A DNA stretch of 55,054 bases from Caulochytrium protostelioides. Lineage: Eukaryota; Chytridiomycota; Caulochytriomycetes; Caulochytriales; Caulochytriaceae. Under the pieces are notes generated by a model. It was not told the origin of the DNA. It saw nothing but the letters and a program-made list of their open reading frames with translations, and made no database searches. The position numbers and the translations under genes were made by a program. Shown here in pieces: positions 47,347 to 54,790 of this stretch. The DNA is taken from assembly GCA_003615045.1 (NCBI GenBank), contig ML014236.1, positions 1-55,054 of the forward strand. The letters run 5' to 3'. Within the stretch, counting starts at the first letter, position 1; each line of letters opens with the position of its first letter.

Positions 47347-47904
47347 GACGACGACGATGCCTCAAAGAAAGCGGCCAGACCCGAACGCTGACGGACGATG
47401 CGGGCGGATCATGTCCAGACCTTGAGACGTCGGCGATTCGTCGTGATCTGTCGATCTGCGATCTGTGGGTCATCGCTCCGACGCGGTGGGTTAGCGCGGT
47501 CGGTTGATCGGAGACATGGCGGCGTTTAAAACGGTGGAGGGAAGGCGCAGCGCAGACCGAGCCCGCTTCGATGACTTGGGCCTGCGATCCGAACGGGTGA
47601 AGCGTGGAACACTGCATTGCTCATCGCATGGCTCGGTTGAGCGGCGGGGCCCAGGGCACTTCCCAACGGCCTTCGCCAATCGCGACGGTTTCGAGTCATG
47701 GGCTCGCGGCGGGACCCTCCAGACCACCCTGCGAAGTGATCCGCCAACACCACCCAAGGACGGCAGAGGACTTTAGGGGAACCTGCGGCTGGTGCCGGTC
47801 TCGCGCCGTCTTCATGGGCATCCAAGTGGCTCACCCCATGGAGAGCCGACCCACACAGGGCCACCGTCGGGGTCTTATCGATATCGAGTATACCGAGTCA
47901 AGGC

Positions 47905-48045
47905 TCACCCCGATCTTCGGTGGCGCCCCCTAGGGGTCTCCCCCGAAGCAGACTCGCTTTCGGTTCAGTATCGGATGACTTGGCCGACCTTGGGCTGCCA
48001 CCGGGTTGGCTCCGGGTGGCGGCACCGCGCTATCGGTCTGGCGGG
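47905..48045 (-). repeat. 3' flank of Fanzor-like relic A (shared downstream element)
   Basis: Downstream (leftwards) of the relic's C-terminal motif the words AGGGG-TCTCCC, AGCAGACTCGC and TATCGGATGACTTGG align with those at 48560-48625 and 53900-53965, indicating the same transposon 3' end. Confidence 0.55.
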
Positions 48046-48478
48046 TCAGACCCGACAGCGTCGGATATTCGACGCGGCAATGAGGTCGCGGTTCACCAAC
48101 TTGCCGTGGGTGGCTTCAATGGCGTTGGTAGCTTCATACCACAGCCAGCCACGAACCGCGGTCTCCTGGCGCCGGTGTTGACCGGGTTTCAGGACCACAG
48201 TCGTCTGGGCCTCAACCAGGGTCTTGCGGGCCGGGATGGCCGGCGTCGGCGCGGCCGCGGGAACACCCGCGCGAGCACGGCGGGGCGGGTTGACCCGCGT
48301 CGGCGCCGTCGAGCGAGCGCTCGCCCCACGCATGCGGACCGGATTCACGGCCGCAGGCGCGGTGTGGGCAACGCTTGTCCGGGACGCGCGAGCGATCGGC
48401 ACCTGCGTCGAGTCCCGGGTTTCACCTTCGTCAGGATCCCGTTGGATCCTGGGGTCGTCCGGAACTCGTCGACCATCA
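48046..48478 (-). pseudogene. Fanzor-like (eukaryotic TnpB-type) nuclease relic A, C-terminal part
   Basis: On the minus strand V-D-E-F-R-T-T is encoded at 48473-48453 (E at 48467-48465) and N-R-D-L-I-A-A-S-N-I-R-R-C further on (D at 48087-48085), preceded by G-W-L-W-Y-E-A-T-N. These match the RuvC-II glutamate motif (V-D-E-x-x-T-S/T) and RuvC-III aspartate motif (N-R-D-x-N-A-A-x-N-I) of Fanzor/TnpB proteins. Both catalytic residues survive in this copy, but the two motifs are in different frames, and a nine-A run just before the first motif also breaks the frame. The RuvC-I half is missing, so the gene is dead. Two related copies at 53.9-54.8 kb support the assignment. An Arg/Pro/Ala-rich insert separates the motifs here compared with copy C. 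Confidence 0.65.
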
Positions 48479-48483
48479 TTTTT

Positions 48484-48650
48484 TTTTAACCAACGTACAA
48501 ACAGACAGGCTCCCCCTTGAGACGACCAGGCACGAACGCCATGCCCTCCCGGATGCCACCAAGGGGCACTCCCACAGAGGCAGTCCGCGTTCGATGTATC
48601 GCTGAATGAGCTGGCTAACCACGGGCTGCAACGTGGCTGTCAAGTTTGAG
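48484..48650 (-). repeat. Isolated 3' end of another Fanzor-like element
   Basis: In minus orientation a GCAGCCCGTGGTTAGCCAGC-like segment (48602-48640) is followed by CCCCTTGGTGGCATCC and GGTCGTCTCAAGGGGGAGCC (48509-48570). The same order occurs after the C-terminal motif of copy B near 53.85-53.99 kb. It is placed immediately upstream of relic A, so two element pieces are in tandem. Confidence 0.6.
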
Positions 48651-49093
48651 TGGCTCCACAACCGCCGTTTCCCCCATACATTTTGTATGGGGGAAGAGGA
48701 ACCTCCGTGGCCCTTCCATTCGCCCAGTTTTTCTTCCGAGGTGAGATCCCACGAGGTGACCCTCTGACTTCTCGTCTCACACATGCCGAGATCCCACTGG
48801 TGCCTCGGCCGTCTGACCCTGTCTGGTCAGTACGGGTTCGCCCATTCCAAAGCAGATGAGAAAACATGAAATGGAGAGATACAAAGCAATGATAATTCAC
48901 CGACGGCGTTTTGCGAAAAGCGATCCATGAAAAAAAAGGAAAAAAAATAAATCGAGGGGGTTCATGAGGAGAACGAGAGAAAGGTTCTTGGTCAACAAAA
49001 ACCGATGCGCTGGATATGAGTCGAATGGTATGAAAAAAAAGGAAAACAATAAGGAGAGCAAGGAGCATACTAACAAGCATGAGGCACACAGCC
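48651..49093. other. 3' flank of the fasciclin gene
   Basis: A/T-rich, with two A-runs (about 48928-48950 and 49033-49042), consistent with 3' untranslated and terminator DNA of the minus-strand fasciclin gene. Apart from the hairpin nothing else was recognised. Confidence 0.5.
48669..48695. repeat. Perfect 12-bp inverted repeat with 3-base loop
   Basis: TTCCCCCATACA, loop TTT, TGTATGGGGGAA. It stands just outside the isolated Fanzor-like 3' end and between it and the fasciclin gene. It could be a transposon end, an RNA hairpin or a recent palindromic insertion. Confidence 0.8.
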
Positions 49094-51025
49094 TTACAGG
49101 TCGGCCAACATCTGCTCGACGTCCTCCACCGTCAGGGAATCTCCCTGAATGGGCGCCGCCGCGGCCTGCTGGTGAGAGTGGGCATCGACCATCCTCGTCA
49201 ATGCATCATAATGGTCCTCGGGAAGAATGAGGCGCGGCACAATATACAGGTTCGCGTTGCGAGCCAGCATGTCCTCAAAGATGATGGGGACGTGCTCGTT
49301 CAGCAAGAGACGCGAGCCCATACCCAGCGCACCATTGCAGCGGATGCCCGGGTGCTCTTCGCCATGCGGCGGGTGGTGCGGCTTGCCATGGCCAGGCTTG
49401 CCGTGGCCAGGCTTGTGGTGGTGGTGCTTGCCGTGGCCAGGCTTGTGGTGGTGGTGCTTGCCGTGGCCAGGCTTGTGGTGGTGGTGCTTGCCGTGACCGG
49501 GTTTGTGATGGTGGTGCTTGCCCGCAGCGTCCACCTGCTTTGTCTCCGACTGCGTGTACGCGGCCGGCAGGCCGCTCTGCAGACCTTCACGGACCGTCGC
49601 CATCTGCTCGCGGATCTGCGAGATCAGCACGCCGTTGTAGTGCGAACTGAGCGAATCGTCAGGCCAGCCGTCCATGCGGCCCTTCGCCCGCAGTGCCGTG
49701 ATGTTAATTTGGTTGTCGGCCACGGTGTCCAGCGTCATCTGCTTGCCGTCTTTCGTGCCATCGTACAGCTCATCAGAGTACGCAAGGCGCGGCACGACAT
49801 GACCCATGATGATCTTGGCCAGCAGCTTACGGCCCTCCTCCGTGTGGGTCAGCCAGTGCAGGCGGCGGCGGCCAAGCGAGGTAAACGCATGGTTAGTCGG
49901 CACAAAAAGCGTGTATGCCTCGCACTCATCGAGGTAGTCACGGTTGAGAATGCTCGGGTGGTGTTTCTCCAGCAGGTCGAGATACTTCAGGAAGAGGTGG
50001 AAGATCTTGCCGTGCGACTTGCTGAGGACCTCAATCAGGTGACCCGCGCGCGGGGGAACCACAATGGGGCCGTCAATCGCATGCAGCACGCCGTTCGATG
50101 CGCCGACATCCGCATAGACGATTTGCGCAAAGTAGTTGAGGCAGATCTCGAGGCCCTTGGCTGCGGACGTGATGCGGATCTGCTGGGGCGCGTCGCCGAG
50201 CGAGTCCACCGTCAAGTTCGACGCAATCAGCGCATGACGACGGCCAAGACCCCACGGGTGGTCGTCACCGACGTCACTGAGCACGGCGGGGAGAGCCAGG
50301 TCATGGACCGAGGCCTGGCGCGGGTGCAGCCACGTCGGGGATGGCGGATAGGTGCGCGACTTCTCCGAGATGCGGCCCTTAATGACATGGTAGCGAAGGA
50401 TCGTTTCCAGCACGTGCGTCGGCGGAAGCTTCGGGTGGTCGTCGCCGTCGCCGTCGCGGTCGATCGTGCAGGTCGACAGGGCCTCAAAGCCGCGCGCGGC
50501 GTCCGATCCCCAAACCATGACCTCTGATGGGCACTTGTCGGGCGGCGGGTGGTGGCGCAGGAAGCGGCCGATGCGCACGAAAGCCTCGTTCGTGGGAGCA
50601 AGGAAGGTCCACTGCTCATCCTGGTCGTCCTTGGAGATGGCCTCCTTGAAGTTCGGGACGTAGGAGACGGTGTGGTTCAGGATGGCGAGCGACGACGAGT
50701 GACCCAGCACATCGTACAGCGTGTTGCCGCTGCGCTGCAGAGCAGGCGCTTCGTCCTGCACGAGCGGAACCAGACGAGGCGTGGCCAGGTTCGGCGCAGA
50801 CACGTGGAGCACGGACTGCGCGTTCGTGATGAGCGCCTTGTCCTTGCCCTTCCGGGCATCGGTGGTGCCCCAGAAGGTGTGCCACGCCTGCGTCCACGCA
50901 GGGCCGTCAATGAGCTCGAGGTGACTCAGGTAGTTGCGCGAAAACTGGAGGGGGTTGGCGTCCGCCAGCGATGCCGACGGCCACGCGAAGGTGGCCAGCG
51001 CGATCACGGCCAATGAGGCATGCAT
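49094..51025 (-). CDS. Secreted fasciclin (FAS1) domain protein with histidine-rich repeat insert
   Basis: 643 aa from the first in-frame ATG (51025). Residues 1-21 (M-H-A-S-L-A-V-I-A-L-A-T-F-A-W) form a signal peptide. Two FAS1 adhesion domains are visible: the first at about 95-325 (T-L-Y-D-V-L, W-T-F-L-A-P-T-N-E-A-F, Y-H-V-I-K-G, G-V-L-H-A-I-D-G-P-I) and the second at about 330-620 (L-I-E-V-L-S, Y-T-L-F-V-P-T-N-H-A-F, I-M-G-H-V-V-P). The second is split by a His-rich insert at about 501-553 made of four K-H-H-H-H-K-P-G-H-G units and shorter G-K-P-G-H-G pieces. No C-terminal hydrophobic GPI signal is seen. It is likely an extracellular or vacuolar adhesion-type protein. The insert could bind Zn, Cu or Ni; that is inference. 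A CATAAAAGG-like TATA element lies upstream near 51413. Confidence 0.88.
   Translation of the reverse strand: MHASLAVIALATFAWPSASLADANPLQFSRNYLSHLELIDGPAWTQAWHTFWGTTDARKGKDKALITNAQSVLHVSAPNLATPRLVPLVQDEAPALQRSGNTLYDVLGHSSSLAILNHTVSYVPNFKEAISKDDQDEQWTFLAPTNEAFVRIGRFLRHHPPPDKCPSEVMVWGSDAARGFEALSTCTIDRDGDGDDHPKLPPTHVLETILRYHVIKGRISEKSRTYPPSPTWLHPRQASVHDLALPAVLSDVGDDHPWGLGRRHALIASNLTVDSLGDAPQQIRITSAAKGLEICLNYFAQIVYADVGASNGVLHAIDGPIVVPPRAGHLIEVLSKSHGKIFHLFLKYLDLLEKHHPSILNRDYLDECEAYTLFVPTNHAFTSLGRRRLHWLTHTEEGRKLLAKIIMGHVVPRLAYSDELYDGTKDGKQMTLDTVADNQINITALRAKGRMDGWPDDSLSSHYNGVLISQIREQMATVREGLQSGLPAAYTQSETKQVDAAGKHHHHKPGHGKHHHHKPGHGKHHHHKPGHGKHHHHKPGHGKPGHGKPHHPPHGEEHPGIRCNGALGMGSRLLLNEHVPIIFEDMLARNANLYIVPRLILPEDHYDALTRMVDAHSHQQAAAAPIQGDSLTVEDVEQMLADL
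49377..49525. repeat. 30-bp coding tandem repeat (His-rich units)
   Basis: Four near-identical 30-bp units plus partial ones inside the fasciclin gene; all in frame. Confidence 0.9.
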
Positions 51026-51171
51026 GGTAGCGGCATGCACCAGGCGTACACTCCAAACAGGTGCGATTCGAGAAGAATAGAGAAGATCCGAGAAGATGGC
51101 GTGGAGCGATGCGAATGAAAGAAAATGATCGTCGTGGTGCCAAGCACCCAGTGATCAGTGAGGGAGACCAG

Positions 51172-54174: not shown

Positions 54175-54390
54175 CCCACGGCGGCAGTAACGCAGTAGTC
54201 GGATGAGCTTGCCGGCCACGGGCTGCAGCGAACTTGCCCGGGGATGCGGCACAGCGCCATCGGCCTGACTCGTGAGGCCAGGCAGCGTCGGATGCTCAAC
54301 GCGGCATCGAGATCGCGGTTCACCAACTTGCCGGGCTTGCTCCAGGATGCGGCACAGCGTTTGGCCGTCTGACCCATGAGGTCTGATCGT
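54175..54390 (-). pseudogene. Fanzor-like nuclease relic B, C-terminal end, partly duplicated
   Basis: The minus strand encodes G-K-L-V-N-R-D-L-D-A-A-L-S-I-R-R-C-L (catalytic-type Asp at 54314-54312) and then L-C-R-I-P-G-Q. This equals the RuvC-III motif region of relics A and C. Immediately upstream (54336-54388) part of the following segment is repeated (GGATGCGGCACAGCG occurs at about 54243 and 54349), so the region has been tandemly duplicated. No RuvC-I or RuvC-II motif remains in this copy. Leftwards the 3' segment runs into the hexanucleotide array. Confidence 0.65.
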
Positions 54391-54790
54391 GAGTCCTGAA
54401 GGACCTCCAAGGGGTGGTCTTCAACAAAGCGATCTGCAGGGCCGTGGCCGCAGAGCAGCCAAGGGCAGGCTCTCCGTTCCTTCATCTCGGGCGTACAAGG
54501 CGTGCGCTTCTGCACCGTCATTGTCGACACATTCCGCACGACCCAGACAGATGCAGAGACAAATCTGTCCCTGAAAAGAGTGCAAAGCCGGCGCACGAAA
54601 GCCGTGGCCACAGGTTGGCTGTGATATGGTGCCACCAACGGCCATTCTGTGAACCACGACCTCAACACCGCTCTGAACATCCACCGTTGCCGGGCCGCGC
54701 TCGTCAGGTCTTCGACGCTGTGCCACATTCCCGGGCAAACCATGGAGCAGCCCGTGGTCGTTCGAGCTAAACCCCGGGGCACTCGCTGGA
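54391..54790 (+). pseudogene. Fanzor-like nuclease relic C, C-terminal part, inverted relative to B
   Basis: Plus-strand frame 1 encodes R-F-C-T-V-I-V-D-T-F-R-T-T-Q (54508-54546), then G-W-L-stop-Y-G-A-T-N (TGA at 54622-54624 where relic A has TGG), then V-N-H-D-L-N-T-A-L-N-I-H-R-C (54649-54690) and L-C-H-I-P-G-Q. RuvC-II and RuvC-III motifs are in one frame, unlike in relic A, but the RuvC-II Glu is replaced by Thr and a stop lies between them. The RuvC-III Asp is kept. Spacing from the Glu position to the Asp is only about 43 residues. The N-terminal half was not found; relics B and C are head-to-head, so their missing N-terminal sides face each other. Confidence 0.65.

Follow-up and report, generated by a model that had tools for sequence, protein, structure and literature searches.

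A 55,054-nucleotide stretch of the genome of Caulochytrium protostelioides (contig ML014236.1, positions 1 to 55,054; hereafter the window) was analysed around positions 48,046 to 48,478, where the initial annotation had seen the relic of a Fanzor-type RNA-guided nuclease. In this study, we found that this segment is a genuine Fanzor1 relic. The explanation that we hold to be highly probable as a whole is that it represents the 3' part, now dead, of a transposon gene of the Fanzor1 type. Taken alone, the window copy is one dead copy of the ordinary kind; what gives its family moderate interest is the lost zinc ribbon and the apparently one-ended spread.

According to this explanation, the parent gene would encode an RNA-guided nuclease with a basic N-terminus like a nuclear localisation signal, a REC/WED region and a split RuvC domain, whose active site is of the Fanzor type, D(PG)-E-D. 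Between RuvC-II and RuvC-III, a metal-free hairpin would have taken the place of the zinc ribbon and, in Caulochytrium, would have acquired a Pro/Arg/Ala-rich loop that is probably disordered. The 3' tail would supply the scaffold of the omega RNA, the DNA immediately beyond the 3' end would supply the guide, and the enzyme may cut copies of the flanking site, as Fanzor biology would suggest. The element would have spread by one-ended, Helitron-like copying, possibly helped by a transposase provided in trans. RNA guidance and cleavage by the Caulochytrium-type proteins are thus proposed by analogy with Fanzors.

Fanzor1 identity of the relic

Both catalytic motifs and the GWLWY between them had been placed on the minus strand, and reading the sequence confirmed all three (positions in Table 1). 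The RuvC-II motif VDEFRTT and the RuvC-III motif NRDLIAASNIRR sit in separate open reading frames (ORFs; 48345-48485 and 48046-48639, respectively). Given the two frames and the early TGA, the window copy is dead and cannot make the nuclease protein. It is truncated and has no RuvC-I part.

Active-site conservation was examined in a family alignment in which each row is a matching stretch; for RuvC-II and for RuvC-III, two loci are represented by two rows each. The RuvC-I Asp was present in 11/11 Caulochytrium rows (as DPG in 9/11), the RuvC-II Glu in 20/23 and the RuvC-III Asp (N-R-D) in 30/30. The three rows without the Glu were the out-of-frame window stretch, the second L038 match and L036. 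Longer copies carried the three RuvC motifs in order. In 63 aligned homologues, D381, P382, E546 and D590, among them the catalytic Asp, Glu and Asp, were invariant (63/63) and G383 was nearly so; all three catalytic residues were present in 111/115 homologue matches. E546 aligned with the PpFz1 and SpuFz1 segments LIDEFRTSSFC and LLDEYKTSSVC, respectively. A Fanzor fingerprint has been described as DPG in RuvC-I together with an alternative RuvC-II Glu, instead of the Glu about 50 residues upstream (PMC10711439, in excerpt). The family has Asp-Pro-Gly at RuvC-I and a Glu just before the ribbon site.

Proteins from public contigs, presumably metagenomic, were compared with the window by tblastn. 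All five that were tried matched it (E 3.4e-15 to 4.9e-11), the matches spanning its GWLWY...NRD part, and the L017 peptide of its own family matched at E 1.7e-46. Judged by these matches and those at the DNA level, the window motifs are not a chance resemblance. A single-sequence search of the PDB with L017 gave no match, and therefore a homologue alignment was needed; its profile matched Fanzor1 only (E 3.6e-21, 1.4e-15 and 2.2e-9). The model of P0001, a relative modelled in place of a Caulochytrium protein, matched the Fanzor1 fold with a wide gap to all else. The family alignment, the PDB profile matches and this fold thus upheld the Fanzor-type assignment and placed the relic in the Fanzor1 branch. 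That Pfam and NCBIfam gave nothing above cut-off on the pieces could agree with a transposase of the DDE or another kind, or with some unrelated coding repeat, that resembles the two motifs by chance. However, the ordered RuvC motifs of the longer copies, the PDB matches to Fanzor1 only, the fold of the relative and the tblastn match of P0003, which ties the relatives to the window family, make this scarcely credible.

In the Foldseek viral library, A0A6G6XPP9 (E 2e-40) and A0A2P0VP66 (Tetraselmis virus 1; 7.7e-29) were the closest predicted structures. Both are matches by predicted fold, and they may point to large viruses as carriers. A tblastn scan of viral contigs with the homologue alignment found no relative, though the viral structure library shows some. 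One public gene model of C. protostelioides, CXG81DRAFT_23488 (P0011), is annotated only as a hypothetical protein; it is a Fanzor fragment that runs into unrelated sequence.

A repeat family in the genome

All genome-wide figures below are for the genome that contains the window, 20.9 Mb in 337 contigs. A DNA search with 47900-48830, in which 40 of 470 candidate places were scored so that counts are lower bounds, listed 46 matches. The long ones showed 76-89% identity and short extra pieces 68-86%. Besides the window itself, 45/45 listed matches fell in query positions 355-931, that is from 48476 down, and therefore the repeat begins at about 48475. When the query was placed further downstream, family matches stopped between 47917 and 47873. 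Searched with the C-terminal protein segment of L017, the genome gave at least 194 matching pieces (142 of 1118 candidates scored), and with a middle-region protein at least 175 (146 of 375); for the N-terminal DNA query, 40 of 53 candidates were scored. One copy may yield several pieces, and the piece counts are lower bounds. The drop in matches from the C-terminus to the N-terminus is compatible with 5' truncation, between queries that differ in kind and length. The genome thus carries or carried Fanzor transposons, as had been predicted, and searching it with this segment did return long DNA homologues.

The copies reach from 60-odd to more than 1,600 bases upstream of the break in the window copy, and the longest reach the N-terminus. 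That of L057 was read as MADAESVS..., an acidic/serine stretch ahead of a basic PAKRRRPDRAEK-like one, which looks like a nuclear localisation signal. The parent element is estimated to have been a repeat of roughly 2.4 kb with a single gene. Two Fanzor copies, L062 (G000:C183:9200-12600) and L045 (G000:C22:15000-22500), lie near reverse-transcriptase matches or other repeats and are probably nested insertions in repeat-rich regions.

Several observations weigh against a Fanzor1-type transposon as the source of the stretch. The family has no C4 zinc ribbon, while in the 2013 description of Fanzor and TnpB a C4 zinc finger forms part of the motif given as strictly conserved (PMC3627910, in excerpt). 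Pfam gave no match on three window pieces, and NCBIfam none on one. Among four longer copies, two had 11-residue PF07282 matches at E 0.27-0.3, below the cut-off; one additional match, to another family, was at chance level. The profile check that had been suggested for the window thus failed, because the C4 zinc ribbon that PF07282 describes is absent. A defined 5' end of the element was not found from the longest copies. Intact copies had been expected elsewhere in the genome; several copies have long open stretches, yet no full-length uninterrupted gene was present among those read. No target-site duplication was detected in 13/13 copies with an accepted 5' junction, the longest shared word being 3-6 bases. 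In the 3' tail, an outer stem was no better than shuffles and showed no covariation, and tails folded moderately better than mononucleotide shuffles (mean z -1.77 in 21/43).

Loss of the zinc ribbon

The cysteines of the ribbon are replaced in most of the family. In the Caulochytrium rows the first Cys site is His in 19/23, and the second is Tyr in 24/30 and Cys in 2. The RuvC-II Glu and RuvC-III Asp were both aligned in 113/115 homologues, including P0011 with its unrelated second half, and 109 of these 113 had no CxxC between them. CxxC was present in P0112-P0115, the four weakest matches, with two CxxC in P0113 and P0114. An earlier pattern count had given 77/81 without CxxC. In the P0001 model the ribbon stretch is still a two-strand hairpin (561-565, 570-578), with the cysteines gone. 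The ribbon cysteines are absent from most rows and homologues, and therefore the family is classed as a Fanzor variant and not as a standard member.

SpuFz1 of Spizellomyces punctatus (PDB 8gkh) and PpFz1 of Parasitella parasitica (9cf0) are among the closest known Fanzor1 proteins. In SpuFz1 the zinc finger is of the CCCC type (PMC10432273, in excerpt), whereas the Caulochytrium family has lost the cysteines and carries an extra loop. The relatives without a ribbon come mostly from environmental contigs, and one chytrid-type fungus and one green alga have them as well. On balance, we lean towards a large and ancient Fanzor1 branch of about 620 residues, without the ribbon and with the full D-E-D site, whose members would be RNA-guided nucleases with a metal-free hairpin at the target strand, and which would have undergone a one-ended, many-copy expansion in Caulochytrium. 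Loss of the ribbon across the clade and the extra loop in Caulochytrium might alternatively reflect a changed role, in which the proteins bind RNA or DNA without cutting and are no longer RNA-guided nucleases. This is improbable, since the invariance of the catalytic Asp, Glu and Asp in the 63 aligned homologues, and the presence of all three in nearly all homologue matches, would be unexpected if cutting had been lost.

The regular expression of a 2023 search demands CxxC...CxxC, and many TnpBs and Fanzors are said there to contain the finger (PMC10711439, in excerpt). The main text of a 2024 Cell paper on Fanzor structures does not contain the word zinc (PMC11423790). Of seven relatives scanned, the distant P0112 alone passed the PF07282 cut-off. 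Since published descriptions and one published search pattern demand the ribbon and PF07282 had no match above cut-off for the closest members tried, such searches would overlook the branch. No report of a zinc-ribbon-less branch, or of Fanzors in Caulochytrium, was found in the titles and abstract openings listed, with a coverage mostly without subscription journals, so a description may exist. The branch makes the need of the ribbon for cutting directly testable and offers compact natural variants. Many relatives carry a precomputed PF26935 assignment, and the Pfam scan did not report PF26935 for P0003, which is a carrier; PF26935 may already model the zinc-ribbon-less clade.

Table 1. Positions of Fanzor-related features in the window.
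Feature	Positions	Strand	Remarks
RuvC-II motif VDEFRTT	48473-48453	minus	Catalytic Glu at 48467-48465
GWLWY	48150-48136	minus	Site of second Cys pair in solved Fanzor1 (RGLLWY or RGLLWC here)
RuvC-III motif NRDLIAASNIRR	48093-48058	minus	Catalytic Asp at 48087-48085
Premature TGA stop	48048-48046	minus	Ahead of conserved C-terminus
5'-truncated Fanzor1 repeat copy, about 595 bp	47881..48475	minus	C-terminal gene part and 3' tail; tail aligns with 42 other copies
Pro/Arg/Ala-rich insertion, RuvC-II to RuvC-III	48165..48417 (approximate)	minus	Frameshift inside or adjoining
3' untranslated tail with common 3' end of repeat	47881..47967	minus	Candidate omega RNA scaffold
Tail of older, more diverged copy	48479..48641 (approximate)	minus	Directly upstream; family tails match 48641-48536 at 63-72%
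Second Fanzor relic (RuvC-III, KLVNRDLDAALSIRRC)	54222..54341	minus	tblastn with P0003, E 6.2e-12; more diverged
Third Fanzor relic, VDTFRTT (RuvC-II) to VNHDLNTALNI (RuvC-III)	54458..54768	plus	tblastn with P0003, E 4.9e-18

Mode of spread

The ends of the copies were compared to examine how the repeat spread. A 5' junction was called in 16 of 30 copies, of which L031, L049 and L050 were left out for further family sequence upstream of the break. The 5' junctions of the 13 accepted copies are scattered over the element, and the 3' ends are shared. Shared words averaged 4.31 bases in true flanks versus 4.66 in mismatched flanks. The window copy appears to have inserted immediately after the 3' tail of an older copy, which ends in a run of nine A (48487-48479, the end at 48479 read by eye).

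CRe-1, 2 and 3 of Chlamydomonas reinhardtii are Fanzor1 elements assigned to Helitron2, often with duplications (PMC3627910, in excerpt). By that description, the CRe elements and the Caulochytrium family are alike in frequent 5' truncation, intact 3' ends and many copies; they differ in that no target-site duplications, defined 5' end or Helitron partner were found for the latter. A Helitron2-type rolling-circle element of this kind has, in our estimate, somewhat less than an even chance. It would agree with the same over-abundance of 3' parts, a hairpin near the 3' end, 5' flanks that are somewhat T-rich (34% T in the 20 bases before the junction versus 22% background, 13 copies) and the Chlamydomonas eustigma protein P0082 among the relatives. 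However, truncated CRe copies often have flanking duplications of 7-19 bp, of which the 13 copies showed none, and the 5' end of the element is not defined. A scan with PF14214 (Helitron_like_N) matched neither this genome nor the control genomes, and so it speaks neither way.

For SPu-1 elements, terminal inverted repeats of 33 bp and duplications of TA have been described (PMC3627910, in excerpt), whereas no duplications were seen in the Caulochytrium copies. In Auxenochlorella, a Fanzor lies in the most abundant repeat, otherwise uncharacterised, of a small eukaryotic genome (PMC12633428, in excerpt), a case that is alike by description only.

The same 5' truncation and common 3' ends would be left if LINE machinery had carried the Fanzor gene by target-primed reverse transcription, giving 5'-truncated retrocopies. 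The genome does have 19 reverse transcriptase matches, 15 of them above cut-off, 9-bp repeats were seen by eye at some 3' ends, and the A-run of the older copy could be of such origin. We consider this unlikely, as the 13 copies with unobjectionable 5' junctions have no target-site duplication and most 3' ends lack poly(A) by eye. In addition, the Fanzor tail was not found within 3-4 kb downstream at the LINE-like loci L059 and L060, the two that were read. One-ended copying of the Helitron type is thus favoured with low confidence. The Caulochytrium expansion would then be a second case of one-ended Fanzor spread, besides the CRe elements of Chlamydomonas.

Pro/Arg/Ala-rich insertion and coding history

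Caulochytrium copies carry about 90 extra residues (91 in L017), a partly duplicated stretch with a high content of Pro, Arg and Ala. By our reading, the insertion sits at the tip of the ribbon-site hairpin, where it probably forms a disordered loop. It was present in L017, L037, L041, L045 and L062 and absent in the relatives aligned. Since the third relic, at 54458-54768, is without it, either the insertion was gained during the evolution of this repeat or that copy has lost it.

An intron was considered and disfavoured for the insertion, with in-frame stops in 4/2365 codons versus 59/2326 and 7/2325 in the other frames. Variation by codon position was measured against L017 in 32 copies, L017 included. 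At positions 1, 2 and 3 it was 14.2, 8.9 and 19.8% in the gene before the insertion, 17.7, 12.1 and 15.6% in the insertion, 15.7, 9.7 and 14.2% in the gene after it, and 15.6, 26.7 and 22.2% in the 3' tail. As in the gene parts on either side, position 2 of the insertion shows the least variation, but position 3 does not show the most. The rare in-frame stops and the low variation at position 2 led us to keep the insertion as coding, as the codon counts suggest, although the case is not strong. The part before the insertion bears the mark of past protein selection; for the insertion and the part after it, the low second position alone is a weaker sign.

3' tail and candidate omega RNA

In the longer copies the stop codon is followed directly by the tail, which has common end points, with at least three end types by our own reading. 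In the 43-copy alignment, an inner stem, CTTCGG/CCGAAG, was paired in 214/240 cells. It had 19 compensatory cells compared with a mean of 4.8 in 500 shuffles; 14 of the 19 are one T-A to C-G switch, which may represent one or two events. A further stem, CACC/GGTG, was unsupported by the cell counts, and RNAalifold on the whole tail alignment gave almost nothing. The tail of L048 folded well (z -2.26), and those of the window copy (-0.19, no better than shuffles) and L017 (-0.46) did not. The Fanzor1 guide RNA runs past the element end (PMC10711439 and PMC10432273, in excerpt), and by analogy the 3' tail is likely an omega RNA scaffold.

Neighbouring features

The window holds two further Fanzor relics (Table 1). 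In the third, VDTFRTT replaces VDEFRTT, and the sequence is more diverged. The three relics as one broken copy were ruled out, because the strands differ and one has no insertion. Weak RVT_1 matches were found on the plus strand at 830-1048 (31.2 bits, above the family cut-off) and 2332-2481 (26.2 bits). Adjoining the relic, a long open frame at 49094-51154 on the minus strand encodes a fasciclin domain (E 1.1e-20) as well as a His-rich repeat.
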